DNA from: Labia minor
Lineage: Eukaryota; Arthropoda; Insecta; Dermaptera; Spongiphoridae
Direction of reading: 5' to 3'
DNA: 64,000 bases
NCBI GenBank assembly: GCA_963082975.1
Contig: OY720344.1
Span: 79,224,053-79,288,052, forward strand
Positions 18,852 through 61,480 of the stretch are shown here, piece after piece (position 1 is the first letter of the stretch; every line of letters begins with the position of its first letter). The notes beneath the pieces are model-generated. The model did not search any database. It was not told where the DNA came from and worked only from the letters and a program-made list of their open reading frames with translations. Both the position numbers and the translations under genes were made by a program.

Positions 18852-18985
18852 TTAAAAATTAATGATTATATTATTTATAGAGTTTACAATTATTTATAAT
18901 CAATTTAACATTTCTTTATTTCTAGTCTTATACAATGGGGACCCGGCCCATAAACAGTCCACCATAATAATAATTATAATATAAC

Positions 18986-19148: not shown

Positions 19149-19159
19149 AATATAACCTA

Positions 19160-21055: not shown

Positions 21056-21090
21056 ATAGATAAATTATTAAAGTTTTATACTAGGTATTG

Positions 21091-29649: not shown

Positions 29650-29880
29650 TTTATGGAGTAATTTATTAACATTGAACTACAATAATATAAATATAATATA
29701 AATATAATATAAATATAACGAATTATTATTTACTAGCTATGTTTTAATATGATTTTAAATGAATGTTTTAATATCATTTTAAATGAATGTTTTAAATCAT
29801 TTTAATAAATGTTTTAAATCATTTTAAATAAATGATTTAATATCATTTTAAATGAATATTAATTTATATAATAAATATAT

Positions 29881-33358: not shown

Positions 33359-34400
33359 CTAAATTGCGGGTAACGTAAGTCTTTCATTTTCAGTCAATTC
33401 TGGATGCCAGACATCTACGATGAGAACAATTCGCGGTTCTGTGCCTTCATGCCAAACTTCATGCTCGAAACTATCATCGAAGAGAATAATTTCCCCTTCG
33501 TGCCAAGTTCTATAAATAAATTTTCAATATAGATTATATGTGTTTAAATATATATAGGAATAAATAAATATATGATTTTAAAAATATATTTTTATATACC
33601 TTTTTTCATTAGCCACACGAATGGAGGTGCCAGGTGGAACTTTGAGACCAAGATGCGCACGAAGGCGGCAGTTGGTAGGTCCACAATGGGGCCAGACATG
33701 CGTACCTCCTGTCATTATCGAGAATTTCGACTGACCCCGAGAACATTTTCGAGCTGCCGGGAATTGCTCCAAAAGGGCACAAGTTACAGGGGCTAATTTA
33801 CAAGCAGCATCTCTTCGATATCCTATTAACAAATATATTTTAATAATAAAAATGCATATTAACTATTTATTTAAGAAATTGTACATTTTGTATAATTTTT
33901 CTATTAGCCCTTTTGTGGTATATGGTTTCATAATTTACATTGATCATTAAATTCAAAAAATACAATAACAAACATAAAGAAACAAACCTCTAGCAAAAAG
34001 TTCCATTTGTTTCCAATCTCCTATCTCTTTCAAATTTTCTGTTTCATTTTTATAAGCATTTTCCCGGCCAACTTCAAGAGCATGGAGGGCTTCATCTCTT
34101 ATGGCTTTCCAATTTTTCTTTAAAGCTCTAAAGAAATACAAATTATTACAATATACTAATAATTTAAAAAATATTTATCAAATAAAAGAATATATAATAT
34201 ATATAAAAAATAACTTTTAGATATTAATATTAACCATGACTTACTCAAAATCTTTTAAATACGGTGTGTCTTCTATATTCCACCAAGGTTTGCCTGTTAA
34301 TCGATTTATATTGTAAAGAGATCGTTGAAAAACAGATAAGAAAAGTTTTTCTTGAACTCCAAATTTATAAATGTTATATGCTTCTTCTATTCTTCCTAAT
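33359..34400 (-). CDS. Asph: ASPH C-terminal exons: hydroxylase domain
   Basis: Exons 34245-34400, 33988-34127, 33600-33822 and 33359-33509. They encode SVFQRSLYNINRLTGKPWW, the NWKAIRDEAL helix, GDWKQMELFARG, the double-stranded beta-helix with HVWPHCGPTN (first Fe-binding His), and FDDSFEHEVWHEGTEPR (second Fe-binding His). The family uses a His-His facial pair rather than HxD. The protein ends HPELTENERLTLPAI, matching the vertebrate C-terminus, so the gene is complete at this end. Confidence 0.96.
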
Positions 34401-37400
34401 CTGTATTTAAAAAAAAAATTATGGTTTATTTTAAAGTAATTTATATGAATAAATTATTTAAAACATTTAATATATTTTTTTTATAAAGGATTCATCTAAC
34501 TTTATTAATAAATAAAATAATAAAATAAATTGGATTAATTTCATCTAAAATTTAATTTGAATATAATATAGATGAGATTAAAAAAATAATTGTTGATTGT
34601 GTTAATTTGAAATTATTATTAATTTAATATTATTATCTAATTATAAAATTAACCTTGTAAGAGCATCTCCAAGTTGGAAAAAAAATCGTCCGTCTATTGT
34701 ACCAGGTTCGCGACTTTTAATACCTTTGTCAAGATATACAATCGCTTCCTCTAAATTATTATCATGTGTTTTTAAAATAAATCCATAGTGTACTTGAGCA
34801 AAACCATTATCAGGCCATTTATTTAATGTATTTTCTAAAATTACTTTTGCTTCACGAACTCTGAAATAAAAATATATTATACACACACATACAGAATCGA
34901 ATAAAAAATTTAAAAACATTGTTGAATAGAAATTTTATGAATTTTATATATTATAAAATACCTGTTTAAAATTAATAAAGTAACAGCCATTTGATTTGGA
35001 TAATTGACTTCTTCAGGATATTTTTTAACAAGTTCTTCATGAATCGCTAATGCTTTATTATGCTGCCCTAAAAAATAAAATAAATTTTACAATTTTAAAT
35101 ATCAATTATAAATCATCATCTTAATAATAATAATAAAATAAATAATTAAATATAGATAAGAGTTACACATAAGACGAAAACTTATATAAAAATATATTAA
35201 GTTTTTGCAATATATAAAAAACATGAATAATTATCATAATTATATCTTGAATTTAATTTTTTTTATTCCATATCCACTATACTATACGATAATTATAAAT
35301 TTTTACATTTTATTATGATATAAAAAATATAGAATCTAATATCTAGAATGTAGGATCTTTATAAATAAATATAATAACTTAAATTATTAAATTTAAATTT
35401 CATATTATATTTTATTACAAAATATAATATAAATACATTTAAGCTGGAAATTAATAAAATAATTTTATTACCTCTAAATCTCATTCTATCAATGCAACGT
35501 AGAGCAACTTCAACCCAAAGATTATCAGGGACATTTGGTAACATTAAAAAATTTTGATATGTTTCAATGGCTTGAGTAAGTAGAGTATTGCTATGTTTCA
35601 TTTCGGCTAGACGATCCAGAGATTTAGCTTTGCCAAACCAGGCTCGTGGCGATTTAGTATATTTTTCAAGAAGTACAGAGTAAGCAACCAAGGCAGCCTT
35701 GGGGTTCTGGATATCATTATGAGCAGGAAGGAAAGATTAATAACACAACATTAAGGTTATTTATATATATAATTATATTATTCTAAATATCAACCCAATT
35801 TATACCAAAAATGAACACAAACAAATGAACAAAAAAAAAACTAAATAAATAAATAAAAAAATAGATGGAAGATATTTTTCTATTTTCTTAAAATAAAAAA
35901 CCTTTCAAAATGTTATAATCAAGTGACAAATTAGTTTAAATTTTATGTGTCAATGTGTATCAGAGATGTTAAAACAAAAATTAAGCTGGACTTGTATAAA
36001 AATACTGATGATAAGGATTACAATAATTATTATTAAAAAAATAAAAAAAAAATTGTAAAAAAAAACACTTTAATTAGACGAATTAAAAATAATAAATAAA
36101 AATATAATCATAAGAAAGCAGTAGAAAAGTATATTTCGAGAACGTTTGGCGAACATTGAACCAAAGGCACACTATTTAATTATAATTTAATCAAAGAAAC
36201 AAAAAGAGTTAGATTGAATAAATTTAAAATCTAGTATTCCTTGATTTGATGGAATTTGGGTGCTTTTAAGGAATATAAGATATTTAAATATATTCATCTA
36301 ACTCTTTAATTAATTCATTAAAAATATGATTTTTTTCTAAATTCTATTGGTTAGCACGTATGTCACTCTGAAATTTAGGGATAATAAATAAATCACAAAC
36401 AAAATCACTCATTTAGTTAAATAAAGGAAGAGATCATGGATGGTTGAATTCAGAAGTCGAAATCCTAAGACAAGAAATAAATAGAGAATAATTAGAAATT
36501 AATTTTTTTTAAATTCTTTAATGTTTTTAAATCAAGTAATTCATTAAGATGAATGTTTATTCTAAGTAAATAAAGAAAACGTTTAATATATTGTATATAT
36601 ATTAAAGAATATTTAAACAAAACGATTTTATAAAAATAACAAGGATTCGTTCTTTTAAAAAAATTACTAAAATATATGAATTTTCATGTATAAAATCAAT
36701 TCATAATATAAATAAATTCGAGGATAAAATGATTTTATTAAATGAATTATTATTTAAATTTCGAAAATTTTATTTAAAAAAAATGAATACGATAAATATA
36801 TAAAATATTTTTTTAATTATATCAATCAATATATACTTACTTGGTCAATTTGAGCTTCGGCATCATCAAGAATTCCTTTAATATCCCAATCGTCTCCATA
36901 GAGAGCTTTTTGATCATCCTAAAATAAGAAAATATAGAAAAAAATATTAAAATACTTTTCTTAAAATATTTAGATTAAAAATAAAGTACAAATGTGAACC
37001 TCTTCTGTACTACGGCCTCCGGTTGCTGGTTTTGGTTTTGCTGGAGTTGCTACTTTTGGTGGAGGTGTGCTTGGTTTTTTATCTTCTTCCGATTGTTCTA
37101 TAAAATCATTCATTCAAATCAAATTATAAGTTTAAATATATATTATGGACGCTATTAAGAAAACCAGTTGAATTTTATTAAGAATTAACGTCTCATCAAC
37201 TTTTCTATAGTTATTTTAACTTAAATATTTAATAAATATGATCTAATAATATTATTAAATTAATTAAAATAATTACTTTTAAATTAAAAAAGTTAAATAT
37301 TCGATTATAAGAATAGTAAAATTAATAATATACCCCAACAGATAATTAATCATTTTTTAAAGTACTGAGCTCGTTGAATCAGGTACTATATATGACTTTA

Positions 37401-40400
37401 AAAAACATTAAAATTTGCTTAATAAAATAAAGTAATAAGATAATAGTTATATTAAATAATCATGAATATGTATATCTATTGATAAGAAAAAAATAATTAT
37501 ACTGTCGTTAAATTTAGTTATTAAAAGACAAGCTAAAGTATTTATAAACATATATTTGATAAAACATAATACACTAAATCTTAAGATGTCCTTGCCTTCT
37601 TCCTCTTCCTCTTCCTCTTCCTCCTCTTCTTCCTCCTCTTGTTCTTCTTCTTCTTCCTCTTCCTCTTTTTCAGTTGTTAATTTTTTCAAATTTTTTTGAC
37701 CCTCAGATGCATCTTCATCACTTTCTCCTTCATGAAGCATTTTTCTATATTTGCTTACTAATTCTTCATAAGATTGTACTTTATACTCTTCACTGTCATC
37801 GTCAATGGGAGAGTCCCTTTCAGCTTTATCATCTTCAATATCTTCCTCTATCTCTTCCCCATCCTCCTCGTCTTCCTCCTCCTCCTCCTCTTCTTCTTCC
37901 TCTTCTCCTCCATATTCTTCAACTTCTTCTTCTTCCTCCTCCTCCTCCTCTCCTTCTTCATTATCACCTTCATCTTCAGGAGATTCTTCAAATTAAATAT
38001 TTGAAATTAATACTATTTTTTATAATAAAAAATTGTTCTAATATTTTACATTATTATTATAATATAAATATATATAATATTAAAATAATTAGTGATTTAT
38101 AAAATACTTTTACAAAGATTTATTATCGGACCTGATTGTGAGGTTTCTAAAGGAGCTGTTTTGATAACTTGTGAAATTTTTTCAACTATTGGTATTTCCT
38201 CTTCTGGTTCAGGAATCAAAGTTTGTCGTCGATCAATGGGTGAATAAATTTCAGGTTCAGATGCTGAAAAGTTTGCTTTTATTTAAATTAATTAACATTA
38301 TTATAGAATTCACTTTCCAAACATTTTAGTTGTTAAAATTTGAGCACAATCTAATGACAAAATATTGATTAAAAAAATGTACTATAACATTTCACAAAAA
38401 AAAATAAAATTAAAAAAATATAGTTCTAACTTTTGAAAATAAAAATAAAATGAAAAAAAATACTCTAAATAAGATAACAAAATTTTAATAATAAAAACAA
38501 TTGTGGATTAGATAGAATTTACAAATGTTATTTGTAAAAATAAAGATTATTTATTTAGCAACAAGATCCTCACTCAAAGCTGGGAAATGCAATTAAAATA
38601 ACAAATTAAAGAATAGAACTAGATCGAATTGAAAGAAATGAAAGTTAGTTAAAAAATTCATGCCTTTGAATATTTCCGACCAGTTTAACTGCTCTAGGAT
38701 TTTATTATTAAATTTTCCATTTTATGATATATCTAAATCATTTCATTTACAACTATTTTATGAAAATATTTAATAGATGTCTGAGATTAAAAATCTACCT
38801 TGTAATAAAATATCTCTTTTTTTCTTTTGTTCATTCATAAACAATTTCCAACAAAAGTCCTTCCCGAAATAACTAAAGCACCAACGTCAGAAGATGACGG
38901 GTATAGCTTTGGACTCGAGATAAAATTTCAAACATATTTTCAAATTAAGCCTCACCAAACAAATTTACTTAACGTTCTGTGTGTTTGTGTAATGAAATGA
39001 AATAATGCATGTAATTAAAATAAGTAATAAACAATATTGAATATGGGAAAAATAATACTATAAAAAACTGATATTTTTTTAATTTAAATTAAAATTTTAT
39101 TAAAATGTTTAATATGAATGGTATATAATTAAATAGCAGGGTTTCATCTACCCACTCAATTCCTCAATGATTGTATTTTCAATAATATAAAATTAAATAT
39201 TTAGATAATGTGTGTGAAAAAAATGAAAATAAACTTATAATATATTTACTAAATGGAAATAAACCTTTATTCTCATTTCTTTTTAATTTACCTTAAATAA
39301 ATCTCAGCAATTTAATTAATATTTAGAAGATTTTGGAAAAAAAATTCAATAGTATCCTTTTTGGAAAGTGACGTTCTTATTATCAGCAACATCACACAAA
39401 CACTACAGAATCAAATAAATCTATATTTTCAACAGAAGATTCAATTTAATTTTTAAATCTTATCTTATTATGCTAGCTAAAATTGTATATATGTATTTAT
39501 CTATATATATTGGTTCTCAAAAACCGCTCTAACGATTTTTTTCAAATTCACACTAGATATAGTATTTATAAAGAAAAATTAAGTTTTATTGATGATATCT
39601 CTTGAAACATACAGCTTCATTATTAATTTCTTAATTGAAAATTATATATGGAAAACGTCAAAATTTTTAATACTGCCTGCTAAGACAGTAAAAAAATGAC
39701 AATTTTTTATCTAAATACATATAGTCCAGCGGTTGGACTGATGTTTTAACGAGTGGATTTCGTCGGTTCGAAACTCGCCGGGTGAATCGTTATTTAAAAA
39801 TGAAAATAATGATTTTGTTATTTTTTTTTCTTTTTACCTATTGTTTACTTTTTAATAAATTACTATTCTATATTTATTTATTCATTGTTCTTTTATTAAT
39901 AAAGTTTTAGATAGTTTTATAAGTTTTAATATTTTTTCAATAAAATATTATTCAATATATTTATTAATATTATTTTATTTATTATTATTGAGTACCCGAA
40001 GTTCCATTCATTTTAATCAGATTGATGCAATGATGCAACAGTTAATAATTGTAATATTGTAATAAATTTCTATCTTGAAAATTGTTACATATTATTCAGG
40101 ATATTTTAAAAACTATTTCTTTCTTTAATTAATATTCATTTTTTCTATAAGTCAGATATATTTCCAAATATTAAATAATTTTTGAAGTGAAAACTTCTTT
40201 AGCGGCGTTGAGCACTTTTGCGGGATGGGGAAAAAGTATAGAACTCGCGTGATCGTGACCAACACCATGAAACCATCTGCTTTCAAATTTCTTATAACAG
40301 AGCGCGAAATTTGAATTGTCATTAGAACTGTTTTATAAATTATCTCTAACATATAAATATATATTTATTATGTAAAGTTCATTTCATATATACATATATA

Positions 40401-43400
40401 ATCAAAATTATACGAAATGAACTTCACATAATAAATATATATTTTATGTTAGAGATAAGAATTATAAAACAGTTCGTATTGCAATATTTTAAACAAAGTT
40501 GTGTATTTATATATATATAAATATAAGTTACAAATTTGTTTAAAATATATGTTTAAAATAATATATAAGTTATATATATATACATGCATATGAAATTCAT
40601 CTTTCTCGTGAAATAGCGCGAATTTCGTCTGTTTTAAAATTTCTTACGCAGAAGTTTTCACTTCTGTCGGCCAGTCCCACGACTGCCAATTTTGCTTTTT
40701 TAATTCCGAAAAGCTGCAAAGCACGTTTTTTTGTCTTTAGTTTGTTTTATAACCACTTGGGGCGCTAAACAGTTTTTCAAAAAAACACTATAGAAAAAAA
40801 ATATATGTACCTATATATTATATATTTATGTATTATTGAGGAGCACAAGTTCATTAATTTTAATCAGATTGATGCAAATGTGTAACATTTAATAATTGTA
40901 ATAAATAATTAAAGAATTGTGTATCAATATTTTTTAAAGGGTAGAGCGAGAGCTCGGTGTCCCAGGTATTAATATTACCAGCCAAATCCAATAATAATGA
41001 ATCATTTTTTTTAACTTAAGTACCGAGCCGAGGCTCGGGGTCCCGGTACTTAATATAATAATTCTACTAGTTTCTGAAAATTTATTTAAAACAAATTTAA
41101 ATTTAAATCAATAAAAATTAATTTTATATTTTACACTATAATAATAATATACTATATAATAATACAAGCTAATTGTTAGAATTTTTAAAATCTACATAAG
41201 TTAGAGTTGAAGATGAAATCTCAATATAAATAATAATATTGTTTTTATAAAAAATATTCACATTTATTTATATATATAATATTTAATATTGTAAGTGCGA
41301 CGTCAAAAAATAAGAACGAAATAGCAAGATGTTACATTTCAAAATATTTACAGCTGGTCAGTATTGATAATTGATAGTTTTAGTTTAGTAGTTTACATTA
41401 AAAAAAAGAGATATATATATATAGAAAGAGAGATATAGATATAAGCAAAAGCACTGAATAGAATTGTTATCTGAAATATTATTAATATATCTAAAAAAAA
41501 AGGCTAGCCTAGAGCAGCATCGACCGACCGATCAAATACAGACCAGCCTTCGCGGAGGCCGCGGCCGCGGCTTCAGCAGCAGCTGCTGAGGCCTTCCATC
41601 GCCTAACAAGAACCAAATGGGCCACAACTACTAGAGCGAAGCCCACTCCGAGTTTTACGGCAACTGGAATAACGAATACAGAATACTAACCAAAAAATCT
41701 TCTAAAACATTAAAAAAATACATAAACAGATAAAAGGAGGGTTGCATTTCCCGGGTAGTTAAATGAGGATTCACACAATTGATAGAACTCAAATTCTTAA
41801 TAAAGTTCAATTTTTATATTTGAAAAAAAAAACGAAAACAAATGGGTATTATCATATAATAAAATTATTTTAACAAATTTAAACATCTAAATCTAAATTT
41901 AACGACAGAGAATCTAGAGTAGGTTGTGATTACAGTAGTGATTGATGTTTTCAAGTTTGTTATGACATTGAAATGTAGAATTAAATTTACTTACTTCCTG
42001 ATGACAAAAGACTTTCATTATCTGGAACAATATCTTCTTCTTCTTCTTCTTCCTCTACATCATCAATAAGTTGATCTTGAGCAATTTCATTATCTGAGTC
42101 TTGAGGTTCATCAACTTCTTCAACATCTTCGATATCATTTATCTATTTACAAAAAAATATTGTATTTCATTAATGGTATTAAACCTATTCAAATAATTAT
42201 TAAATAATAAATTTAAAAAAAATGCATTTGATAATTTAAATAAATAATCTTATATGAACTCAAAAGAAAATTTTAATGGAATTTTATTTTATTTCATTAT
42301 ATACCTTAACTCTTTTTTAAATTCTTTGACTTATATTTTTGTAAGGAAACATTTTACATTGATCTAAATCAATCAAATATATTTTTTTATTTAAAAAGAT
42401 CTTTGATAGAATTATATTTATTATTGTATTGTATTTATTATCTTTAGTATATTTATTTATTATTATTTATCTTACCCTCTTTTTAGATGGAAGATCATTT
42501 TGCATGGGAGGAGGAGGTGGGGGAACCGGTGGTTTTGATGTGGAAGAAGGTTTTTGTGTTGGAAATGAAGATGTAGTTGTTGGAACTTTTGATTGATTAT
42601 TTATTTTGGGTTCAATCGTTTTTTCTTTTTCATTATTTTTTAAATCTTTCAAATTTGCTTCATTTTCTGTTTTTTTCATTATATTAATTTCCTTCTTTGC
42701 AGGAATAACATTTTCTGTTTGTTTTGTTGTGTCGAAGGATGGTAATTTGGAGTCGGTAGGTTTTGGAGTTTCAATTTTTTCTGGTTTTTTAATTGATTGT
42801 TCATCGATAATTTTTGTATTAATATCAGGTTGTTTTGTATTAGTAGGTTTAAAAGTATTTCCATTTTTAATTGATTCATTATTTCCTTCACTTTCAGCAA
42901 GTGTTGCTTTAGTAACTATACGCATTTCTGGTTTCATAGTAGTAGCTTGAAGATTTCGTTTTTGTGGTGTTACAAAGGAAGGTTCAATTGAACCTATTGA
43001 AATTTCCTCTCTCATAGGTTTTGTGGATTCACCTTTAGGTTCATTAGTTTCTTTATTTGGTTTTCTTTGGGATTCAGTTACGATAATTGAATCAGAAATT
43101 TGTGATTTTGAAGATTTTGGAAGACGTGTTGGATAAAGAGTTTCTCTACTATTTTCATTAATCTCAAGTTTTTTAGTTTTTTGTTTATCAGTATCAAGAG
43201 TTGGTGAAGGAATAACTTGAGCAACAGGTCGCCCTCCAGTATGTGGATCCCCTTGGTAAGTACTTCTTTGGGAACCTTGAGCCCGTTTGGGTTTAGCCTA
43301 AAGAATGAATAATCATGCCAAATATAATTAATTTAAGCAGCATGCTTTTGTAGATGATATGATTAAAATAAAATATTTCAGATGTTAAATTTAAAAAAAA

Positions 43401-46400
43401 AATTTAAATCAAATTATGGTTGAAAAAAATGGTTATATAAATAAAAAAAATTAATTAAAATCAAAATTTGACACTCGACAATTCTTAAAATAAATAATAT
43501 TTGTGAAGGAAATAAAATTCAAAATATAATAAAATAAGCATAAATTAATGTGATTGTACGCATTTTAAACAAATAAAATTTATATTCATCTCACCTCTCC
43601 TTCGTCGCCTTCCTCTTCACTTCCAATACCTTCATCTTCATCATCATTATTATCATCAATTTCTTTACTTTCAGTAATTCCAGGAATTTCTTGTTGTTCT
43701 TCACTGCCATCATCAGGTTCCTCTTCATTATCATCTTCTTCTTGACTGGCGTTAGCTTCCTCACTGCCTTCCCGTGGTTCTTCCTCTTCTTCTTGAGATG
43801 CTTCATCATTTGTTTCATCTTCTTCCGCTTCTTCTGATTGCTCTACTTCTTCTGATTGCTCATCAACTTCTTGTTCTTGTTCTTCTTCCTCTTCCTCCTC
43901 CTCAGCTTGTTCCGTACTTTCTTCCTGTTCTGTTTCTTCAGGTTCCTCTTCCTCTTGGCTAGGTTCAATTTCTTCAGTACTTAAATCGGCTTCATCCTCA
44001 TGGTCTTCCTCTTCTTCTTCATGTTCATCATGTTCATCATGATCATCTTCGTCATGTTTATCTTCACCAGAATGTTCTAAAAAATTAAAATTAAGATATT
44101 AGTGAAAAAGCTATGAATATAAAAAAATACTAAATATAAGAAAAAATTATTGTTATAAATAAATTTTAAATCAAATTAAATATAAATTATTTATAATAAA
44201 AGATCCTTCAAATTAAATAAATAACAAATAAATTAAATAAATAACAAGTAAACATAACATCGAAATCAATTTTAACCATTTATAATTTCAAAAACATAAA
44301 GTTTGAGTGTTTGTGCGTTATCAACAGGTGATTATTGGCACTCTTTCAAAAAATCGGACTTTAACCTCATCCCGTAAGTGGTCAAAAATAACTCACTTTC
44401 ATATATACAAATATTTCACTAATGATATATATAAATGATTAATTAATAAATTCAATTAAACAATTATTTTTCTCCAAGTTTATAATTATTAAAATATTTC
44501 AATTTTAAATGAATATAAAATAATTATAAATATATATTTGTAATAATAATTATTATCTAATTAGAAAATATCTACTTTAAGAATTTTTTAAGGGCTCTCC
44601 AAAAAAATTGAATTTTAATCAGAATATTAAAAAAATCCTATTTAAATTTAATATAAAAAAATATAAACCAAAAGGAAACATTAAAATTGACTCTTTTAAA
44701 ATTAAAAAATCTCTTTGTAATAAAAGTGAAAAATAACTAATTAAAACATTTTTATATTTAATTTTTAATTTTAAAATTGATTCCAAAAAATTAATTTTTT
44801 ATTTACTCTTATTATCAAATCTTACCTTGAGCTTCATGGTCATCACCATGGTCTTCGTCTTCTTCGGAAGCTGCAGGTTCATCATGATCATCATGTTTAC
44901 CAAGAGAATCGTCTACCCAACCATCAAGAAAAGCTGCCCATCTTGATTCACTTACAGGTGTGTCCACTTTCATAAGAAAAACAAAGAAATATCATTAAAA
45001 TATTATTAATTAATATTAATATGTAGATTACCACAACTTACCATCTGTAGATCCACGATATTCTGTTATGACAAGTCCAATCATAACAACAAGAGCTGTC
45101 ATTAATACAAAGAAGACAATTTTAGCAAGAAAGTTTCCTCCAGTTCCTCCATCTTTATGAACATGGAAAGTTTCTTCAGCAGAGAATAGACTTGGAATTT
45201 CTTCAGTAACGGATCCACCAACTTCCTCTAGAAATATATTAAATATAAAGAATGAATATTTTCAGAAATTAATTATAAAATTTTTATATAATAACTAAAT
45301 TATTATTATACCATATTTTGATGATAAATTCAGTATTCACAAAATATTATTTGATCTTAAATTATACATTTTTTCCAAATAAATTTAAAAAAATAAATTA
45401 AAATATAAAAAAAAAACATGAAATACAACAAAAATACAACTGTATAATTTAAATTAATTTAATTTTGACCTTAGCAATCAGCAGCAATTTCCAACCTTTA
45501 TGCTTAAAGTAAAATAATTTAAATAATAAAATTTAAATAAAAATACTCTTGAACAGAGGGGGATTAAACGCCGGGCGGACCGGGCGGCCGCCGGGGCTCA
45601 CCAGACCGAGGGGCCCACCGAAACCTAAATAAAATAAAAATTTCCACATGTGAAATTTGATGTGAAAACAATACCTCCCTTACTATCGTCGGTTGGTAAA
45701 TATTTCCTTAAAAAAATTTAAAAAAACTGTTGTTTATGGATAATCGGAGTTTAAATAAAACAAGTTATTCTTGAAACAGATCTATTTAGGTTGTTTTATA
45801 CTTATACTTATACTTATCTTTATTGAACAACAGATATTTATTTGGTCGTGTTTGAACCCCGACTAACTTAAGAAAAAATAATCAATTTTGGGTCTCGGCG
45901 ACCACAGTAAAAATGATGTATTTTTTACATAAGTACTATATATGTAAGTATAAAACAGCCTAAATTATAATATAAACAAAATTTGTCTTTCAATTATAAT
46001 TGTAAATAACAGAGGGCCCATTTCAATTTTACCGCCCGGGGCCCCCAATCAACTTAATCCGCCACTGCCCTTGAAGAACTTACAATTTTTGCTAAGAAAT
46101 TTAAAATTTTATCTAAAAAATGTAATTTTTATTTATTTTTAAATAATAATATATATTATAACTTATTTAAATTATAATAAAATATTCATAAATGTTTGAT
46201 TATCTTATGATTTGTATTATTCAAGTATATAAAAAATTTCTTTTTAAGAATAAGAAAGAGTTAAAGATTTTTGCTTGCTTCTTTAATAGCTTTTACACAG
46301 ATATTTTTTGAAAAAGAAAGCTATTCAAAAAATGATTTAAAAATATGATTTATATATTTATATTATTAGGGCATCCCGTGGCCCCACAGGAAGGGCCACG

Positions 46401-49400: not shown

Positions 49401-52400
49401 TTTAGTTATTATTTTCTTTTCAAAATTATCATGGGGATCTATAATAGGAAAGATGCTAAAAAAAGGAGATTTCGTTTTTTTTGCTCTTCACCATGGGGTA
49501 ATATCAACTTACACAAAAATATTTTGGGGTAATGATTAAAAAAGTTCCCCGGCCGCTGCTATACTATAAACACGTGGAGACAGAGAGGGTGGGGGAAGGA
49601 GAGAGGGAAGACAGTTCGCTCATTTCATGCCACGTTTTTTCAGATAAGGGATATTGTGGGCTATGGGGGTAATTGGAACCAAAGGGCATTTTGAGAGTAA
49701 GGGAGACGGGTTTAAAATTTTTTTCTCATTTACAATTAGACAGAGTTCCTGCTTTCTGCAAGAATCTCTATGGCCTCCTGACCTTTTTGGGACACCCTGT
49801 ATAAACCAGATTATGTCAGTTTGTGTTCCATGTTCGCGAGTAGATACAAAACATTTGTTTATTTACGCTCCAAGTGGAAAAACTGAGAACGTTGTTTATA
49901 AACAAGTTTTGCAATGAAAAAAGTGGGCAGAAAGGAAAAGCATCATCTTTTTGTACACACTCAAAATGTCAATCTCACTGCTTTAAAATAAAGTAAACAA
50001 GGCAAGTAAACGCAATACTTTGTATTCTTTGTTATCTTTATTACATGGGGAAGGTTCTTTAACAGGTTGTGTTATGCTCCAGAGGTTTTATTCCGCTTAA
50101 GCTCCAGAAATATGCGACAGAGAAAGCTTCACTAAACAAAACCTGGTAAGTAAACGCCATACATATTTGTTATTTTATCTTTGTTATATTCACTTAACGC
50201 ATGTCTTTGTTTGCTGTAGTTATGCCTATGAGTAAAACGTGTGGTCTATCACAATTCTTCAAGATTTTCAAGCCCAGAATTCGCTTCTTTAAGATTTTAT
50301 TTCAATTTAAACTCCAAAACAATAGTGATTTGACTTTCCTATTTCAAAATATATTTATATGAACAAGAAATATTAATTTAATGATAAATCATATTTTTCA
50401 ATTTCGGATTTAAAAATATCTATTCACGAAAAAGTGCAATTTTCCATCTTTTAAAATAGAGTTTTCCATTAATCTATAAAAGTATCCTCAAAATCACCTG
50501 AATTATTATTATTATAGTTATTCCCGGGAAAATTCTTTAATTTTTATTTCCTGTTTCCCAAAAATAAAAAATTTTCCATGCTGATTATGATGCCGATACC
50601 GAAATCTTTGTTTGTTAACTGAAATAGTCGTAATAAATATAAAATACAAGTGTACATACATACATTTGTCTTTTGTTATAATTTTTTTTTTAAATTTTTC
50701 TATTTTTTGAGTTTTTTTACACTGAACTCTGGCAGACGGCAGTTGCCATTGCCAAATTATTTTGTATTTAACTTTTTTTGTACATATATAGTTATATATC
50801 TGCACGTGTAATAGAAATGTCAATCAACTTTTAGATTAAAAATTCGATTTCACAAGCTTGCGTCTGTTTTAATTTCCTTGATAAGGGTTCTATATAAAAT
50901 TATTCTTGAACAGGTAACGATAATAAAATACACTATTGTACTTGACTATTTGGAAAGAAAGTAATACTCCTCACACCCTTGAAATTAACCCCTATCACAC
51001 GCAATTTGCCTCTTAAAAATAAGGATTCGTTCGACGGGTCAATGTTCATAAAGAAATCGCAAAGTTCATTTGCCATTCTTAAACCTTCACTAAAATTTTT
51101 CCAATTAAATGTCACGTTTCCAGTGCTTGTTGAAGTTTCTTCTTCAATGGGCTGTGAATTTAACATTTCCTCCAATTCGGTTTCAGTCAAATCTTGCGAT
51201 TCAAGTAATTCCTGAATAACCCTTGACTCTATCTGTTCGGACCCATCTCGTCCTATTCTCGGCTATGTTTGCAATCAAAGTTTGAACTTGCACAGATTTT
51301 TTGTCATTTTCCGCAGTTAAAGCAGGCCAGTTTTTTTCAGCATGAATTCAATGTGTGTTGCTTCAGTTTGTTTACATTCTCAAAAACACCGGCGTCCATT
51401 TGAAGCATTTACAAAGAATATTGGGTTGGATAACTATTGAAATCCTTTTAATATTTAGCTTCATAATTCTATCATTGTAGAACTGGTGTGGTTTATCAGA
51501 GAAAAACTTGACGACATGGTTTTCGGTTGCACTTTTGTTTGCCAATTTTTTCCATCAAGAAAGTATTGCAGAGGCCTAAATAAATGGTAGTCAGACGATG
51601 CAATGATCGCATGTTATTAATCTTTTAGGAAATGGGTTCATTTTGTTTGATTTACTAATGTTTAGCAGATGTCGAGACGGTTGGTCAAATTTCGCAGAGT
51701 CATCAATTCATGTGGCTCACAAACATCGAGTTTTTTTTAGTAGTCAACCCTTTTCAAATGATTCCAAACTGTTTGGTAGTTGATGCCCAAGGCGTCAGCG
51801 ATGTTCTGTATATCTTGATTATGTTCAAAATTTGTTAGCTTTTTTACATCCAAATTTCCATCATGAAAACATTCAAACAAATATCCTTACAGCATCCTCA
51901 CCGTAAATGGCACACACTTCTCTGCATGTTTTTGATGCATTGGAGCCTTTTCTATAGTGAATAAGCGGGAGTGTCCTCCCCTAGACTTTCCCGCATATAA
52001 ATAGGTATAAAGAGTTGCGAATGAATATTTAGAATGTAATAAAGTGCTACTTCCGGTTAACTGATATTTTAAATGTAAAAAAACAGATATGGATATAATA
52101 TAAATATTTTTAATTTTATTTTATTTATAATATATAAGGGCTGGCTGTGACGTCATGAAGTGCTGGGTGACGTCATATAATTTTAAATTAAGAAAAAACT
52201 AATGAAGATGATTTTTCTCAAGGATAAAACCAATACAAAGTGCATAACACGTGGAGATATGCCTTCACGTGAAATTTGATATGAAAATAACGCTTCACTT
52301 CCTCTCTTCGATCGGCAATACTAGCACTTCCGGTTTCCGGATTTGCACCAAAAGTTGATCCATTCATCATACTGATGCATTAAGTAAATATACCAAATTT

Positions 52401-53314: not shown

Positions 53315-56300
53315 TTCTTCAAGTGCCTTGTCCGGTCTCCCTGACGTCGGCGATCACTCTGGCGAAAACGTCTCTATTTTCCGCCGTGCGGAACAGCTCT
53401 CCCACGCTCCTTATGCCGGTCCATTCCCTGATATTCCCTAACCAGGATTGGCGTCTTCTCCCGGGTCCACGTCGACCCTCAATTTTCCCTTTGAGGATTA
53501 ATTGAAGGAGTTGATATTTATTACCTCTCAAGATGTGGCCGAGGTAAGAGATTTTCCGGCATTTGACAGTGTTGAGGAGTTCTCGCTGTGTGTTTGCTCT
53601 CCTCAAGACATCCTTGTTGGTAACTCTCTCGACCCAGGGAATTCGCAGCATTCGCCTGAGGATCCACATCTCAAAAGCCTCCAGGCGATTCATCGTACTG
53701 ACCTTGAGTGTCCATGCTTCCACACCATATAAGAGAATGGACCAAACATAGCATTTGGCCATTCTCTGTCGTAATTTAAGATTTAGGTTGTCATCACAGA
53801 AGAAGGATCTCATTTTATTGAAGGTGGACCGCGCAGCCTCAATTCTGGACTTAATTTCGATATCCGGGTCTAGCTGGTCATTTATGATACAACCAAGATA
53901 TTTAAAAGATCTTACTCGTTCAACTTGTTTGTTATCGAGGTGGAGGGAGGCGTTTCCATGTGGCTGGCGGCTAAAGACCATAAATTTTGTTTTGGCTATA
54001 TTGATGTTTAAGCCCGCTTTAATTCCAATTTGAGAAATTTTATTCAGAAGTAGTTGAAGGTCTTCAATGTTTTCAGACAGGATCACGGTGTCGTCGGCAT
54101 ATTTAATTGTACTAATTGGTACGCCATTTACTTTCACCCCCATATCCAGTTCTTCCAAGGCCTCCTTAAAAATTCTGTCAGCATAGAGATTAAATAAAAG
54201 GGGAGAGAGAATGCATCCTTGACGGACTCCTCTCTGGATCTCAATTCCCGGTGTTGTGGATTTTCCTACTCTGATTACGGCATATTGCCTCCAGTACAGA
54301 TTTTTTATAATCCTGATATCTTTTTCGTCCACTCCAGCATCGCACAGAAGTTCAATCAGCCTAGTGTGTTTTATTCTGTCAAAGGCTTTTTCGTAGTCAA
54401 CAAAACATGCAAATACATTCTTGTGTTGGTCACGACATTTTTGAAGCAAAACATTGAAGCCAAATAATGCTTCTCTTGTACCGAAGGCGTTTCTGAATCC
54501 AAACTGCGAGTCATCTAAGTCTAACTCACATTTTAATCGGATGCGGGCGTGTATTATTCGAAGAAAGGTCTTTAACATGTGGCTCATAAGACTGATGAGG
54601 CGATAGTCACTGCAATTCTTAGGGTATTGTTTCTTTGGGATAGTAACAAATGTTGATTTCAGCCATTCCTCTGGAAGCACACCGCAGTTATAGATATTGT
54701 TAAATATTTTCAATACCAGGTCTATATTGTCTTCATTGATGAATTTGATTAATTCCATTGGGATTCCATCTGGTCCCGGCGCTTTCTTGTTTTTAGCAAT
54801 TGAAATAGCGTGAATTAGCTCTGATTTTATTATTTTTGGTCCTTCAGGATCGCAATCATCAATTTCAACTTCCTCTCTGGAATCTTCAAAAAGTTTTGCT
54901 GCGTACAATTGCCAGGCTTTCATGAGTTCAGCTTCGTCCGTTACTAGTTTTTTGGCTTCATTTAGTATTGACATTGGTGGTCGACTCCTGAATTGTCCAG
55001 TTATTTCCTTTACCTTTACATGTATATTAAACATGTCATGTTTTGAGACTAATTCTTCTATTTCTTCACACCTTTCTGTCATCCAAATTTGTTTTGCTAA
55101 TTTAATCCCTTTCCTTATTTTGAATTGCATCTTTTTATATTCCACGATGTTATTTTTGAGAAGTCTCCTTTCTTCCATCAAATCCAAAATCTCGTCCGTC
55201 ATCCACGACCTCCTCTTCATTGTACGTGTTCTCCTCAAGTGAAGCGAACCAGTCTCCACCAAAGCATTTTTCAGCAGTGCCCACTGAGTATTTATATCGT
55301 CAAGATCGTCAATAGATATCCTCATTAATTTGCCATTGAGATCATCAATAACAGCATTCCTAACATCCTCAAATTGTAATCTTGATGTATCAATAATATT
55401 AACGTTGCAGTTTTTTCTTTTTACAGACTTCAACGCTAGGCCCATGTCCGCAACCAAAGGGTTGTGATCTGAGCCTATGTCTGCACCAGGGTATGTTGTG
55501 ACTCTTTTAACACAATTTCGGAAACGTCTGTTTATCAGAATGTAATCAATTTGGTTCCTACTTGGTTCTTGGTTGTCAATAGAGTCTCTGGGTGATTTCC
55601 ATGTGTAAAGACGTCGCTTTGGAAGTTTAAATAGCGTATTAGTTACTACCATCTCTGTAGTTTGGCAGAAATCATAGAGCCGGTCTCCTCTCTCATTACA
55701 CTCACCTAAGCCGAAATCGCCGACCAAATCCCCCCGTCTGCCCTGACCGATTTTAGCATTAAAGTCTCCAAGTATCAAGTTTATGGTATTCTTCTTGAGA
55801 GAGTTTAGAGTGTTTTCTAAAGTGTTGTAGAATTTTTCCACTTCCTCATCGTATTTACTATCAGATGTAGGTGCGTAGACTTGTAAGATATTTATGTCAA
55901 ATGGCTGTCCATGAATCTGTAGCAGCATCACTCTATCCGATATGGGCACAAAGTTCTTAACGTACCTCGTGAACTCCGAGTCAACTAGAATTCCGACACC
56001 GTTTCGATGAAACCTATCTCCACTCTCACTTCCTGAGTAATAGAGTGTTCCTCCTTCCTGAGAACAAACACCGACACCAGGCCATCTGAGTTCGCTGATT
56101 CCCATGAACTTAACTTTAAGTCTTCTCATTTCTTTGATAGCGTTGTTTAATTTTCCGGCCATGAAGAGACTTCTGACATTCCATGTACACACTCGCAATC
56201 TGGTTTTCACTATTCTGAGCCGGGAGATTCTTCGCACCCCTTGCCCATTTAAGGGCTGCCCGGGACTGGGGGCCATTTGTATTTTGTTTCTCGTCATAGT

Positions 56301-59300: not shown

Positions 59301-61258
59301 GAAATTTGGCTGGCATTTTGCCTGTATTTGCTAAAAGGATCAATACAAAAAAGTTATATATATCATCGTGCGTGTAAAAGAACCATAAAACTCATCATAT
59401 TTTTATGAACATTGAGAATGAGGTAAATTAGAAGAATATTTAATACCTAAAAGAACAATAAAGATAAGAATAATTTGTAGGGTAGAAATTAACGATTTTA
59501 TTTGCCCAATTGTTGCAAAATACTTGAGTTGTGATGTCTTTTGCGTTTATATTGAAAAATTATTATTAATATTTTTGTAGTCTTTACAAGCTCAAAGTTT
59601 TTTGCAAGTGGATATTTTCCTGTTTTTTATTAGAGGAAAAAGAACAATTTGAGATAAAATAATTAATACAAGTCTGAATCAAAAGAGAGAGAGAGGGAGT
59701 ATAAAATTTTACAGAATATCTAGAGTTTACTATTTATTTGTCAACTAAATAGACATAATTGGACAAATATGGAGTTTAAAATGAAAATATTATTAATATT
59801 AAAATATGAAATTGAATTTTCCAAGAATATCAGAATAATTATTTATATATATATATTAAATAAATAAAATTTAGTTGAGTAAAAACCAGTGTAAAATTTC
59901 ACATAAGAACAAAGATTTAAAAAATAATTTTAATTTTTGTTTAAATAGAAAAGAAATAGAAACGGTATAAATTATATATTAAGTTAATAAAGATATATTA
60001 ATGAAAGTTCATTTATGGGAAAATTATTTTAATTGGTTATTTTATTTATATATAATTAATTAAAATAATCAACACGTGCCTGTAAATATAAAAATCAAAG
60101 TATTTTAATGAATCAGGGTGGATTTTGGCAACACATTATCTAAGATACCAAGTACAAAAAAATTAAATTATTCAACTTTACTCAAAAAATTGTTTATCGA
60201 TTTCGATAACTTTCCAATAACACCGTAGAGCATTAAGAGTGATTGAATTGTTTAAATCCGTTAAATTGACAAATTTTATGACACCAAATCGTTCTTTGCC
60301 TTTTAAATATGTAGATGATTATTTTTAATGATAAGATAAATAGTTGAAAAAATTATAACAATTATAAGGATTATATCCTCAAAAAAATTTTTTTCTAATA
60401 ATTATTTTTGAAGGAAAAGATTATACTATATAATACTATACAATACAAATAATTATAATTTTTCATAAAACTAACTAATCAGAGGAATCTTAATAGAGTC
60501 AATGAAGATTTTTTTCTAAATTAAATTGAGTTTTGATTAATTCGAATATTAGTTAATTTGTTGAAATTGAAATGAAATTTCAATTGTCTCCAGGGATTTT
60601 AAAAATTTATTATCAATTTATTATTATTAATATTAATAATAAAAGAAAGTGAATTATTAATTAAAATAAAATAAAAGTTTCTCGTGAGAACAATGATGAT
60701 ATTATTCATTATTATGATTTGAATTTTTCTTCATATTCTCATAACATTACTTAGATAAAAGAAGTATATTGCTTTAATAAAATGTCAATTAATTATGAGA
60801 TAAAATTACCTATCATTAATTAAAATTAAAAAAAAAAGTATTATATATAAATAGGAAATTTTCACAGGTATTCAGGTAACCAGGGCCTTATCAACTAGAC
60901 ACCTTTAAAAATTCTTAAATATTCTTATGATCTAATAAATATTTAAAATATAAAATTTGAATATAGAATATATCACATACAATATTCTATGATTTTTAAA
61001 TGAAAATATATGGTTAAAAATAGACTGCAAATATATCTAAATAAAAAAATAAATAAAAATATTAATAAAGCAAATAAAAAATCTGAAGTATTTTGAAATA
61101 TATAAATTTAAAATATATTTATATTTTTGGATATAAGACATGCATGAGGTTATGTCCCAATTTATATAAAATACTAATGTCAATTAAAAAAGATTTATGC
61201 TTGTACCTTTCTTGCGTTTTTTATCTTTTCGTTTTCTTGGCTGAACGTCTCCGGACAT
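33359..61258 (-). CDS. Asph: Aspartyl/asparaginyl beta-hydroxylase (ASPH), 17 coding exons
   Basis: Coding exons in transcript order: 61207-61258, 45042-45227, 44826-44966, 43595-44076, 42476-43297, 41995-42142, 38132-38263, 37596-37985, 37000-37097, 36841-36918, 35472-35706, 34962-35067, 34654-34860, 34245-34400, 33988-34127, 33600-33822, 33359-33509. All phases agree; total 3747 nt, 1248 aa (human ASPH 758 aa). ASPH is a type II ER membrane, Fe(II)/2-oxoglutarate-dependent enzyme that hydroxylates Asp/Asn in EGF-like domains, for example of Notch and its ligands. Strong matches to the family are HVWPHCGPTNCRLRAHLGL, DDSFEHEVWH and the terminal VDVWHPEL..LPAI. The extra length is an acidic and Lys/Thr/Pro-rich luminal region. 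All introns are GT-AG except that of the 37596 exon, which best fits a GC donor. The first exon is the least certain part. Confidence 0.92.
34654..36918 (-). CDS. Asph: ASPH TPR-like exons
   Basis: Exons 36841-36918, 35472-35706, 34962-35067 and 34654-34860 encode helical repeats: SPRAWFGKAKSLDRLAEMK, AIETYQNFLMLPNVPDNLW, NDFA-like KWPDNGFAQVHYGFIL and EPGTIDGRFFFQLGDALTR. These align in order with the TPR region in front of the vertebrate catalytic domain. Confidence 0.93.
37596..37985 (-). CDS. Asph: ASPH acidic luminal exon (Glu tracts)
   Basis: 390 nt, 129 codons, with two long Glu runs separated by a more complex stretch (DDKAERDSPIDDDSEEYK, QSYEELVSKYRKMLHEGESD). On the plus strand these are TTC/CTC-type repeats. 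The exon starts after TTTGAAG; its downstream splice fits a GC donor (GAAG|GCAAGG) in the required phase 1. A weaker GT donor eight codons later (TTTA|GTGTAT) is also in phase 1. Confidence 0.8.
39723..39785 (+). repeat. tRNA-like sequence, probable SINE head
   Basis: CCAGCGGTTGGA resembles an A box and GGTTCGAAACTC (39765-39776) is a good B box; the stretch ends in a GCCGGG-type 3' half. It lacks a clean acceptor stem and anticodon arm, so it is more likely a tRNA-derived SINE remnant than a tRNA gene. Confidence 0.45.
40183..40665. repeat. Nested fold-back element in ASPH intron 6
   Basis: Inner hairpin: 40325-40385 and 40413-40475 are about 60-bp reverse complements around a 27-bp AT-rich loop. 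Outer pair: GAAGTGAAAACTTCT at 40184 against GAAGTTTTCACTTCTG near 40651. Structure suggests a fold-back MITE. Confidence 0.7.
40942..41055. repeat. Imperfect direct repeat, GC-rich
   Basis: AGAGCTCGGTGTCCCAGGTA (about 40950) recurs as GAGGCTCGGGGTCCCGGTAC (about 41030), each followed by TTAATAT. Two copies 81 bp apart; origin unknown. Confidence 0.55.
41509..41685 (-). CDS. Candidate alternative 3' exon of ASPH or nested small membrane-protein exon
   Basis: A GC-rich island inside ASPH intron 6, open without stops for 58 codons to TAG at 41509-41511. It reads AVKLGVGFALVVVAHLVLV (transmembrane-like), RRW, an Ala-rich tail and ends GLYLIGRSMLL. Two acceptors precede it: TTATTCCAG at 41664 gives phase 1, matching the upstream ASPH exon 41995-42142; TTGGTTAG at 41686 gives phase 0, matching exon 42476-43297. 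Using either would replace the TPR and hydroxylase domains with a second membrane segment. An AATAAA at 41263-41268 could end the transcript. Vertebrate ASPH loci are known to make non-catalytic isoforms (junctin, junctate). I do not recognise this peptide; an independent nested gene is possible. Confidence 0.5.
   Translation of the reverse strand, partial: YSVFVIPVAVKLGVGFALVVVAHLVLVRRWKASAAAAEAAAAASAKAGLYLIGRSMLL
42476..43297 (-). CDS. Asph: ASPH long low-complexity luminal exon
   Basis: 822 nt (274 codons), phase 0 at both ends. Lys/Thr/Ser/Glu/Pro-rich, opening AKPKRAQGSQRSTYQGD and ending KPPVPPPPPPMQNDLPSKKR. Donor AGG|GTAAGA. No domain recognised. It has no counterpart in vertebrate ASPH and accounts for much of the extra length. 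As its length is a multiple of three it could be skipped without frameshift. Confidence 0.85.
43595..44076 (-). CDS. Asph: ASPH acidic luminal exon (Glu/Asp/His-rich)
   Basis: 482 nt. Starts HSGEDKHDEDDHDEHDEHEE, continues with Glu/Gln-rich sequence and ends GSEEEGDEGE. High acidic content suits the calcium-binding luminal segment known in ASPH and junctate. Donor GAG|GTGAGA. Confidence 0.88.
45042..45227 (-). CDS. Asph: ASPH transmembrane exon
   Basis: Encodes EVGGSVTEEIPSLFSAEE, then the signal anchor FLAKIVFFVLMTALVVMIG and LVITEYRGSTD. One hydrophobic segment near the N-terminus after a basic cytosolic tail gives the type II topology of ASPH, with the luminal side following. Phase 1 at both ends. 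Confidence 0.92.
45554..46067. mobile_element. hAT-like MITE with 8-bp target duplication
   Basis: Left end CAGAGGGGGATTAA, right end TTAATCCGCCACTG. Flanks are CTCTTGAA (45546-45553) and CCCTTGAA (46068-46075), an 8-bp duplication with one mismatch. GC-rich subterminal blocks. A terminal fragment of family C (45641-45700) is nested inside. No transposase. Confidence 0.8.
46370..46500. other. GC-richer fragment, unidentified
   Basis: GCATCCCGTGGCCCC pairs with GGGCCACGG as a short hairpin, then ACCAGGGACACCAGGGACAA, a short tandem. No ORF. Probably a piece of an unrecognised repeat. Confidence 0.4.
46556..46846. mobile_element. hAT-like MITE with perfect 8-bp target duplication
   Basis: Ends CAGTGGCGTA and TACGCCACTG are a perfect inverted pair. 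AATGTTAG occurs at 46548-46555 and 46847-46854. 291 bp with a G-rich left half (GGGGGGAGCAGGGGGGA) and no coding capacity. The perfect duplication suggests a young insertion. Confidence 0.9.
46930..47165. mobile_element. Hairpin-bearing repeat fragment
   Basis: Begins with CTATCTATCTATATACAC.. and ends with two perfect GC hairpins, GAGCGCCTTCGGCGCTC (47108-47124) and GGGGGCTCCGCCCCC (47138-47152). A GCGCCTTCGG relative occurs at 25970. Terminal hairpins are typical of Helitron-like or rolling-circle elements, but I see no clear CTRR end, so the class is open. Confidence 0.5.
47343..47755 (-). pseudogene. Non-LTR reverse-transcriptase fragment, third copy
   Basis: Collinear with 23566-24345 (CCCTTTGATAATAATTTTGA, TAATTGCAATTGCCGAATCTC). 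The YADD motif has decayed to stop-Ala-Asp-Val here. Dead remnant in ASPH intron 1. Confidence 0.7.
48047..48310 (+). mobile_element. tRNA-derived SINE with RTE-like body
   Basis: The head has A box TGGCTGAATGGG (48057-48068) and B box GTTCGAATCC (48101-48110), an internal RNA polymerase III promoter. After an AT-rich spacer the body from 48188 contains ACCGAAGAAGGCAAGGGG and AAACCACTTCGGT, which match, with one difference, the leader of the RTE LINE at 56320-56350 (opposite strand). The tail GGGCCACGACACTTCC is reminiscent of other RTE-mobilised SINEs. Confidence 0.75.
48480..48770. repeat. Family C left-end fragment and adjoining repeat
   Basis: 48480-48665 matches the left part of the 15970 copy (AAACAATTTCAAATAATTT, ATATTTTTAATTTTATTTTA, TGTGACGTCAT) but diverges before the microsatellite. 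48680-48760 (ATACTATCTC, AAAATCGTTAGAGTGG) recurs inverted at 39515-39600. Confidence 0.55.
49255..49558. mobile_element. hAT-like MITE with perfect 8-bp target duplication
   Basis: Ends CAGCGGTCGGGGAAC and GTTCCCCGGCCGCTG are a 15-bp inverted pair with one mismatch. CTATACTA flanks both sides (49247-49254, 49559-49566). 304 bp, no transposase. Confidence 0.9.
49567..50925. other. ASPH intron 1 stretch, probable old transposon DNA
   Basis: 49570-50270 is GC-richer than the background and has transposon-like character (AAGTAAACGC repeated at 50004 and 50148) but no usable ORF. It may be the flank of the pogo-like or mariner remnants that follow. Confidence 0.4.
50930..51230 (-). pseudogene. 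Pogo/Tigger-like transposase C-terminal fragment
   Basis: An 85-codon minus frame reads MTETELEEMLNSQPIEE then FNWKNFSEGLRMANELCDFF and NIDPSNE. Acidic ELxEMLxSQ plus a late helical LxxAxxLCxFFxxxDPxxE is the pattern of Tigger-type C-termini. The catalytic part is absent. Assignment is from pattern memory only. Confidence 0.5.
51400..53092 (-). pseudogene. Mariner transposase pseudogene, split by an insertion and internally deleted
   Basis: Minus strand. The N-terminus begins at 53092 (MNEIYEEIRHMMLF), is interrupted by the 51985-53050 element, and resumes at about 51975 (RKGSNASKTCREVCAIYGED). A helix-turn-helix piece follows (QNIADALGINYQTVWNHLKR), then FLKRLITCDH where mariners have FLxRIVTGDE. 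The next readable motif is SDYHLFRPLQYFLDGKNWQ, normally found well after the second catalytic Asp, so the catalytic core is deleted. Stops and frameshifts are scattered throughout. Confidence 0.75.
51985..53050. mobile_element. Inverted-repeat element nested in the mariner copy, containing family C
   Basis: ACTTTCCCGCATA at 51985-51997 pairs with TATGCGGGAAAGT at 53038-53050. It splits the mariner reading between MMLF and HYRK. A family C copy with its (GACG)n tract occupies 52075-52600, and a second non-coding block with a (CATA)n(CA)n tract lies at 52750-52930. The last bases next to the mariner join (AGGGGAGGACACTCCCGCTTA, minus strand) may also belong to it. Confidence 0.7.
53319..56297 (-). 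CDS. RTE LINE polyprotein: endonuclease and reverse transcriptase (992 aa, intact)
   Basis: AP-type endonuclease at about residues 33-290: CTWNVRSL (N40), SELRWPG (E69), ILGDFNAKIG (D178, N180), QIDYILI (D251) and GSDHNP (D277, H278). Reverse transcriptase at about 500-770: KAPGPDGIP, YRLISLMSH (usual YRPISL with Pro replaced by Leu), FGFRNAFGTREALF, FVDYEKAFDRIKH (D634), RGVRQGCILSPLLFN and the catalytic YADD at 733-736. The C-terminal part has YLGHILRG and GRRGPGRRRQSWLGNIREWTG. All catalytic residues I can check are present, with no stop or frameshift, so it may be active. It nicks target DNA and copies its RNA in place. Such proteins are often database-labelled endonuclease-reverse transcriptase or craniofacial development protein 2-like. 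Confidence 0.93.
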   Translation of the reverse strand: MTRNKIQMAPSPGQPLNGQGVRRISRLRIVKTRLRVCTWNVRSLFMAGKLNNAIKEMRRLKVKFMGISELRWPGVGVCSQEGGTLYYSGSESGDRFHRNGVGILVDSEFTRYVKNFVPISDRVMLLQIHGQPFDINILQVYAPTSDSKYDEEVEKFYNTLENTLNSLKKNTINLILGDFNAKIGQGRRGDLVGDFGLGECNERGDRLYDFCQTTEMVVTNTLFKLPKRRLYTWKSPRDSIDNQEPSRNQIDYILINRRFRNCVKRVTTYPGADIGSDHNPLVADMGLALKSVKRKNCNVNIIDTSRLQFEDVRNAVIDDLNGKLMRISIDDLDDINTQWALLKNALVETGSLHLRRTRTMKRRSWMTDEILDLMEERRLLKNNIVEYKKMQFKIRKGIKLAKQIWMTERCEEIEELVSKHDMFNIHVKVKEITGQFRSRPPMSILNEAKKLVTDEAELMKAWQLYAAKLFEDSREEVEIDDCDPEGPKIIKSELIHAISIAKNKKAPGPDGIPMELIKFINEDNIDLVLKIFNNIYNCGVLPEEWLKSTFVTIPKKQYPKNCSDYRLISLMSHMLKTFLRIIHARIRLKCELDLDDSQFGFRNAFGTREALFGFNVLLQKCRDQHKNVFACFVDYEKAFDRIKHTRLIELLCDAGVDEKDIRIIKNLYWRQYAVIRVGKSTTPGIEIQRGVRQGCILSPLLFNLYADRIFKEALEELDMGVKVNGVPISTIKYADDTVILSENIEDLQLLLNKISQIGIKAGLNINIAKTKFMVFSRQPHGNASLHLDNKQVERVRSFKYLGCIINDQLDPDIEIKSRIEAARSTFNKMRSFFCDDNLNLKLRQRMAKCYVWSILLYGVEAWTLKVSTMNRLEAFEMWILRRMLRIPWVERVTNKDVLRRANTQRELLNTVKCRKISYLGHILRGNKYQLLQLILKGKIEGRRGPGRRRQSWLGNIREWTGIRSVGELFRTAENRDVFARVIADVRETGQGT
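56361..56424. repeat. Tandem duplication in the RTE leader
   Basis: AGCCGCCCCTAACCTGGAGT at 56361 recurs at 56396 as AGCCGCCCCTAACCTGGAGA, 35 bp apart, each followed by ACAGACGCT. It lies just upstream of the LINE ORF start. Confidence 0.85.
56740..57190. other. GC-richer unidentified stretch
   Basis: Composition and motifs (CATTATCATTATCACC, CACCGCGCCCACCTTGG) differ from the AT-rich background, and it adjoins the RTE leader. No ORF or inverted terminus. Could be an older repeat or the true 5' extension of the LINE insertion. Confidence 0.35.
57337..57665. mobile_element. hAT-like MITE with 8-bp target duplication
   Basis: Left CAATGGTCTTCAAACT and right AGTTTGAAAACCGCTG are inverted with three mismatches. 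Flanks TAATAGAC (57329-57336) and TAATAGAT (57666-57673) differ at one base. 329 bp, non-coding. Confidence 0.82.
57680..61195. other. ASPH intron 1, AT-rich stretch
   Basis: Mostly plain AT-rich DNA. 58310-58510 is GC-richer (AGCGCAAGCTAACCGTGATG, CCTTCGGAGCCGGACC) with no coherent frame; I do not recognise it. No gene seen. Confidence 0.5.
61207..61258 (-). CDS. Asph: ASPH first coding exon (basic cytosolic tail)
   Basis: ATG at 61258 opens MSGDVQPRKRKDKKRKK and ends in phase 1 before GTACAA, exactly the phase needed by the transmembrane exon. Short basic cytosolic tails are normal for ASPH. The surrounding 180 bp is GC-richer than the flanks. The assignment rests on phase, composition and position across a 16-kb intron, not on spliced evidence. 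Confidence 0.7.
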
Positions 61259-61480
61259 GGTGGCCGATGATGAGGGTCCACCGGTGCTTGGGGCCACTCG
61301 CCTCTGGGCAGCTGACTCTGCTCTCTCTTTCTATGAATGTGTATATGTATCTATCGCTTTGAGTTCACGGTTTCAATTATTAGATACAGAACCTGGGAGA
61401 TGCCGTTTGTATCTGACATTCCGGATTTCAAGAAAATCAAACAGGTGCTGCTAGGAGGCGCTGACTAACTTAATAAAGTT
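61259..61480 (-). promoter_or_regulatory. Probable 5' UTR and promoter of ASPH
   Basis: GC-richer sequence directly upstream of the ASPH start codon, dropping to AT-rich DNA beyond 61480. No TATA box is evident on the minus strand. The call is by position and composition. Confidence 0.4.

Follow-up and report, generated by a model that had tools for sequence, protein, structure and literature searches.

A GC-rich block in an intron of the Labia minor ASPH gene as a candidate alternative terminal exon with a predicted second membrane span

In the window analysed here (the whole stretch of 64,000 nucleotides from Labia minor contig OY720344.1), one intron of the ASPH gene contains a short block that is richer in G and C than its surroundings and open on the strand of the gene. 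This raises the question of whether the block is an alternative end of ASPH, an exon of another gene, a non-coding element, or a sequence without function. The initial annotation of the region proposed an alternative C-terminus carrying a second membrane span, with an independent nested gene as the other option. From features of the sequence we suggest that the block is probably an alternative 3'-terminal exon of ASPH, with a probability of about 0.58.

The ASPH gene and its exons

One ASPH gene lies on the minus strand of the window. Its 3' exons match PF05118 (E 5.9e-17 and 1.1e-28), placing the Asp/Asn beta-hydroxylase domain at the C-terminus as in ASPH, and exons 1-6, joined in phase, encode a single N-terminal membrane segment followed by an acidic stretch, likewise as in ASPH. 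No ASPH paralogue was found, PF05118 not being detected elsewhere in the 604 Mb genome at E <= 0.01. Taken singly, exons 2, 4 and 5 passed the cut-off of no Pfam family; the best was EMC4 (E 0.02), which falls short of its own cut-off. The exons are listed below.

61207..61258, minus strand: probable ASPH exon 1, MSGDVQPRKRKDKKRKK; phase 1 out, joins exon 2 in phase
45042..45227, minus strand: ASPH exon 2; encodes the first membrane segment KIVFFVLMTALVVMIGLVI
44826..44966, minus strand: ASPH exon 3, acidic
43595..44076, minus strand: ASPH exon 4, very acidic
42476..43297, minus strand: ASPH exon 5, large and Lys/Pro-rich; phase 0/0
41995..42142, minus strand: ASPH exon 6, acidic; entered in phase 0 and left in phase 1; donor GGAA/GTAAGT
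38132..38263, minus strand: ASPH exon that follows exon 6 in the full-length form; 3' end approximate
33362..33822, minus strand: exons of the hydroxylase domain (PF05118), at about 33822-33600 and from 33509 to the stop; missing from the proposed short isoform

There may be more exons between exon 1 and exon 2. Exon 5 has phase 0 at both ends and is thus skippable with the frame kept. The GC-rich block sits in the 3731-base intron that separates exon 6 from the next exon, which starts at 38263.

Two long open frames on the minus strand of the window resemble, by eye, proteins of mobile elements or proteins derived from them. The one of 1055 codons (53319-56486), between probable exon 1 and exon 2, is LINE endonuclease/reverse transcriptase-like; the other, of 628 codons (27790-29676), is like a hAT-type or ZBED-like transposase-derived protein.

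The GC-rich block and its candidate splice sites

The features of the block and of its acceptor sites are as follows.

41702..41703, minus strand: AG of a rival acceptor; joined to exon 6 it would give KDFLVSILYSLFQLP, stop at 41655, without a second span
41686..41687, minus strand: second acceptor AG of the initial annotation, phase 0
41664..41665, minus strand: AG of the acceptor used in the favoured model; phase 1
41509..41663, minus strand: GC-rich candidate for an alternative 3'-terminal coding exon, (I)AVKLGVGFALVVVAHLVLVRRWKASAAAAEAAAAASAKAGLYLIGRSMLL; TAG stop at 41509
41596..41661, minus strand: encodes the predicted second membrane segment with its basic flank (AVKLGVGFALVVVAHLVLVRRW); hydropathy reaches 2.38 over 19 residues

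The 58-codon open reading frame first reported at 41685-41509 is present with its quoted peptide. Its description as GC-rich applies to 41663-41509, where 91 of 155 bases are G or C against a window mean of 26.5%. Steps of 40 bases show GC climbing from 0.17 to 0.47 at the acceptor, peaking at 0.70 and dropping to 0.30 over the stop; at this resolution the edges of the block match the acceptor (...ttattccag/TTGCC) and the TAG stop. A short way further 5', at 41760-41721, GC shows a lesser peak of 0.42.

The openness of the frame had been presented as a notable feature, but by itself it is ordinary, because the named frame stays open in 653 of 5000 dinucleotide shuffles of the block. The strand opposite is likewise open for 58 codons (41513-41689). 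A frame both open and of equal or higher hydrophobicity is rare, being obtained in 3 of the 5000 shuffles, or in 7 when any sense frame is counted. Triplet periodicity was equalled by 10 of 2000 shuffles and depends on the Ala tract; with that tract removed, 207 of 2000 shuffles are equal in a test that sets the named frame against the best of three frames in each shuffle. Third-position GC is 0.56 in the block, compared with 0.08-0.36 across 11 ASPH exons, a sample in which certain exon ends are off by a few bases and which leaves out exon 1, the exons near 37.9, 37.1 and 36.9 kb, and rows e357 and e335. For a PABP-like coding stretch of the window, named by eye, the value is 0.32 overall, with 50-codon windows reaching 0.48. 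The high third-position GC of the block could reflect an extra constraint at the nucleotide level, or the block could be something other than an ordinary ASPH exon. Searches of Pfam, PDB, and viral or prokaryotic DNA gave no match to the block or its peptide. An AATAAA lies 241 bases 3' of the block stop and is uninformative at the local density of 3.5 per kb.

In genome searches that scored the best candidates alone, nucleotide and peptide queries each located the block at a single place in the 604 Mb genome, although a lack of further matches is not proof of rarity. A wider query gave five further matches, all short and all at about 41449-41405, a CT/AT-rich run outside the block. The comparison covers two of six chosen stretches, both of them GC-rich, assignable to no gene of the window, and located upstream of ASPH exon 2; those at 18982-19150, 20827-21056, 12252-12468 and 61190-61409 lie outside it. 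Both scored controls are dispersed repeats, 45541-45708 with at least 39 other places in the genome (40 scored of 2432 candidates) and 49544-49697 with 30 other matches. Origin of the block from a dispersed repeat or transposon, which calls for multiple copies, was rejected on the finding of one place.

The reading phases around the block fit as originally claimed. The exon 6 donor (41995) is in phase 1 and suits the acceptor at 41663, and exon 5 (43297-42476) ends in phase 0 and suits that at 41685. These two pairs are the ones that yield the hydrophobic peptide among the six formed by two donors and three acceptors. The junction of exon 6 with 41663 reads ...LLSSG-I-AVKLGVGFALVVVAHLVLVRRWK... 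and runs to the stop at 41509, the first I taking one base from exon 6.

Acceptor strength was scored with an own-gene model, built from 15 known ASPH acceptors that were themselves taken from reading frames and motifs and not from cDNA, and with a generic model whose frequencies are general knowledge; ranks are among 627 AG sites, known acceptors included. The initial annotation spoke of two good acceptors, a description that the scores do not sustain. The acceptor at 41663 is middling in the generic model (7.06, rank 26 of 627, better than 7 of the 15 known acceptors) and weak in the own-gene model (0.65, better than 2 of the 15, with 192 of 627 AG sites at least equal). That at 41685 is weak: it scores 1.53 in the generic model (rank 184 of 627, under all 15) and 1.93 in the own-gene model, ahead of 41663 and with 145 of 627 AG sites equally high. 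Two AGs stand 5' of 41663, and one of them, with its acceptor at 41701, scores above both sites in both models. The acceptor of the next ASPH exon, 38263, is the weakest of the 15 in the generic model and the second weakest in the own-gene model; as noted post hoc, this would leave room for a nearby competitor, as a regulated choice would need.

An exon on the plus strand was also considered and rejected on its acceptor scores; under the own-gene model the acceptor at the block edge (41503) scores 1.69, and the best nearby (41425) scores 4.96.

The intron that houses the block contains a near-perfect inverted repeat at 40355-40444, with 36-base arms that are 94% complementary and an 18-base loop. 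A GC-rich palindromic hairpin at 41018-41051 (AAGTACCGGGACC...GGCTCGGTACTT, minus strand) is followed by AAAATGATT, as is a degraded, similar-looking hairpin at about 37345-37390 in another ASPH intron. These two hairpins are possibly a small palindromic repeat element.

Competing explanations for the block

A terminal ASPH exon might be entered through the acceptor at 41701. Exon 6 would then be followed by KDFLVSILYSLFQLP and the stop at 41655, giving a short form in which the block is mostly 3' untranslated. This acceptor belongs to the first of the three AGs and exceeds 41663 by 5.19 to 0.65 in the own-gene model and by 8.16 (rank 15 of 627) to 7.06 in the generic one, but its use would give no account of the GC-richness, the periodicity or the hydrophobic frame of the block, and we regard such a form as unlikely. 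The block could also be an exon of a separate gene, nested on the same strand and borrowing no ASPH exon, in keeping with a codon composition unlike that of the measured ASPH exons. No in-frame ATG, however, stands 5' of the hydrophobic segment in 41685-41509, making a stand-alone gene unlikely, and a stop just upstream of 41685 closes the frame, so that a nested gene would need an unseen upstream exon. The peptide of the block, furthermore, was found at one place in the genome and is without a Pfam match. The nested gene that had been offered as the other option is therefore disfavoured, and its probability appears low.

Two further readings dispense with translation. A functional non-coding element, either a structured RNA or a regulatory GC island (e.g., a splicing or transcription control element), would be open by chance. 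The CpG observed/expected ratio of about 1.1, the high third-position GC, and the fold of the sense RNA from 41480-41700 (z -2.49, 4 of 200 shuffles equally stable) are consistent with this. Nevertheless, the antisense RNA folds in a similar manner (z -1.72, 12 of 200), no curated RNA family of Rfam matches within the 64-kb window at gathering scores, and a hydrophobic open frame arises in just 3 of 5000 shuffles, all of which make a non-coding role improbable. A functionless block, either a product of chance or a decayed insertion, would agree with the openness of both strands and with the 653 of 5000 shuffles that preserve the frame. Against it are the single place in the genome and the GC edges lying close to the acceptor and the stop; a decayed insertion would also be expected to drift toward the AT-rich composition of its surroundings. 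We consider this very unlikely.

The proposal of an alternative ASPH C-terminus is favoured over a nested gene or a repeat by the phase, by the single place found in the genome, by a hydrophobic segment whose arginines fall on the side expected of them, and by the lack of an ATG of its own. It is weakened by the third-position GC and by the middling acceptors.

The predicted short product and known ASPH isoforms

If the block is a terminal exon of ASPH, we infer that a minority or tissue-specific transcript would splice the exon 6 donor (41995, phase 1) to the acceptor at 41663 and add 51 residues before the stop at 41509, whereby the TPR and hydroxylase exons would be lost. The join of exon 6 to the block is in phase, and the predicted product is, as the initial annotation held, a membrane-anchored acidic protein without the hydroxylase domain. 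Without exon 5 it would have 387 residues and a predicted pI of 4.05; with exon 5, 661 residues and a pI of 4.29. In the 387-residue form, 264 residues separate the two hydrophobic segments, and 133 of these are acidic and 6 basic. The hydrophobic peaks, as 19-residue means, are 2.91 for the first segment and 2.38 for the second.

Positive residues flank membrane segments on the cytosolic side (the positive-inside rule). The basic N-terminus preceding the first segment and the RRWK that follows the second would fit two cytosolic ends. The product would then begin with a basic, cytosolic N-terminus, and the first membrane segment would lead into the lumen of the endoplasmic (ER) or sarcoplasmic (SR) reticulum. 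An acidic luminal stretch of about 264 residues, longer if exon 5 is included, would follow, and the chain would then cross the membrane a second time and end in the cytosol with an Ala-rich, helix-forming tail. AlphaFold2, run on 50 residues of the block peptide as a single sequence, gives one helix with a mean pLDDT of 76.3, which is weak evidence. Such a product might resemble humbug or junctate in function, being a calcium-binding membrane protein with no catalytic role, here anchored at both ends.

Use of the acceptor at 41663, or of that at 41685 from exon 5, would result in a two-span product. The more detailed proposal, that the locus makes a catalytically dead two-span protein in which an acidic loop binds calcium in the lumen of the ER/SR, is clamped at both ends and is followed by a helical Ala-rich cytosolic tail, by way of a nearby terminal exon chosen over a distant weak acceptor, falls just short of an even chance in our estimation.

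Humbug reportedly arises from an alternative 3' terminal exon, and the JBC paper of 2000 that is said to describe this is also said to report a Drosophila counterpart. To our knowledge humbug has no second membrane segment or Ala-rich end. Junctate has one membrane segment, with its acidic domain free in the lumen, and junctin ends in a basic luminal sequence. The candidate form, like humbug, is predicted to share the 5' exons of ASPH and to lack the catalytic domain through an alternative end; unlike humbug, it would have a tail with a further predicted membrane segment and an Ala-rich terminus. It would differ from junctate in having two predicted spans instead of one, and from junctin in ending with a second predicted span instead of a basic luminal sequence.

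Humbug has N-terminal and membrane exons in common with ASPH and derives from the first 13 exons, without the C-terminal catalytic region (PMC1764734). Junctate, a truncated homologue from the same locus, is an integral membrane protein of the sarco(endo)plasmic reticulum that binds calcium (PMC2625362). Junctin is a short product of the ASPH locus sharing the membrane exons (PMC1764734, PMC2625362). The statement that vertebrate ASPH loci make non-catalytic isoforms agrees with these sources, humbug and junctate lacking the catalytic domain and junctin being a further short product (PMC1764734, PMC2625362). A non-catalytic isoform is thus already known, and the second membrane span alone would be the new element of the candidate, if it is used. 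No ASPH isoform with a second span is described among the matches listed in the literature searched, in so far as these sources were accessible, with most subscription papers outside that search.

If the exon is used, the vertebrate scheme, in which one locus provides both an oxygenase and calcium-store proteins, would extend to Labia minor. It would also represent a new topology, with an acidic domain held to the membrane at either end and a tail in the cytosol open to partners, and loss of the single 155-base exon could serve as a simple handle for separating the hydroxylase and non-hydroxylase roles of the locus.

The Lys/Pro-rich, skippable exon 5 of Labia minor ASPH loosely recalls junctin, and is a candidate for a junctin- or triadin-like choice of isoform.
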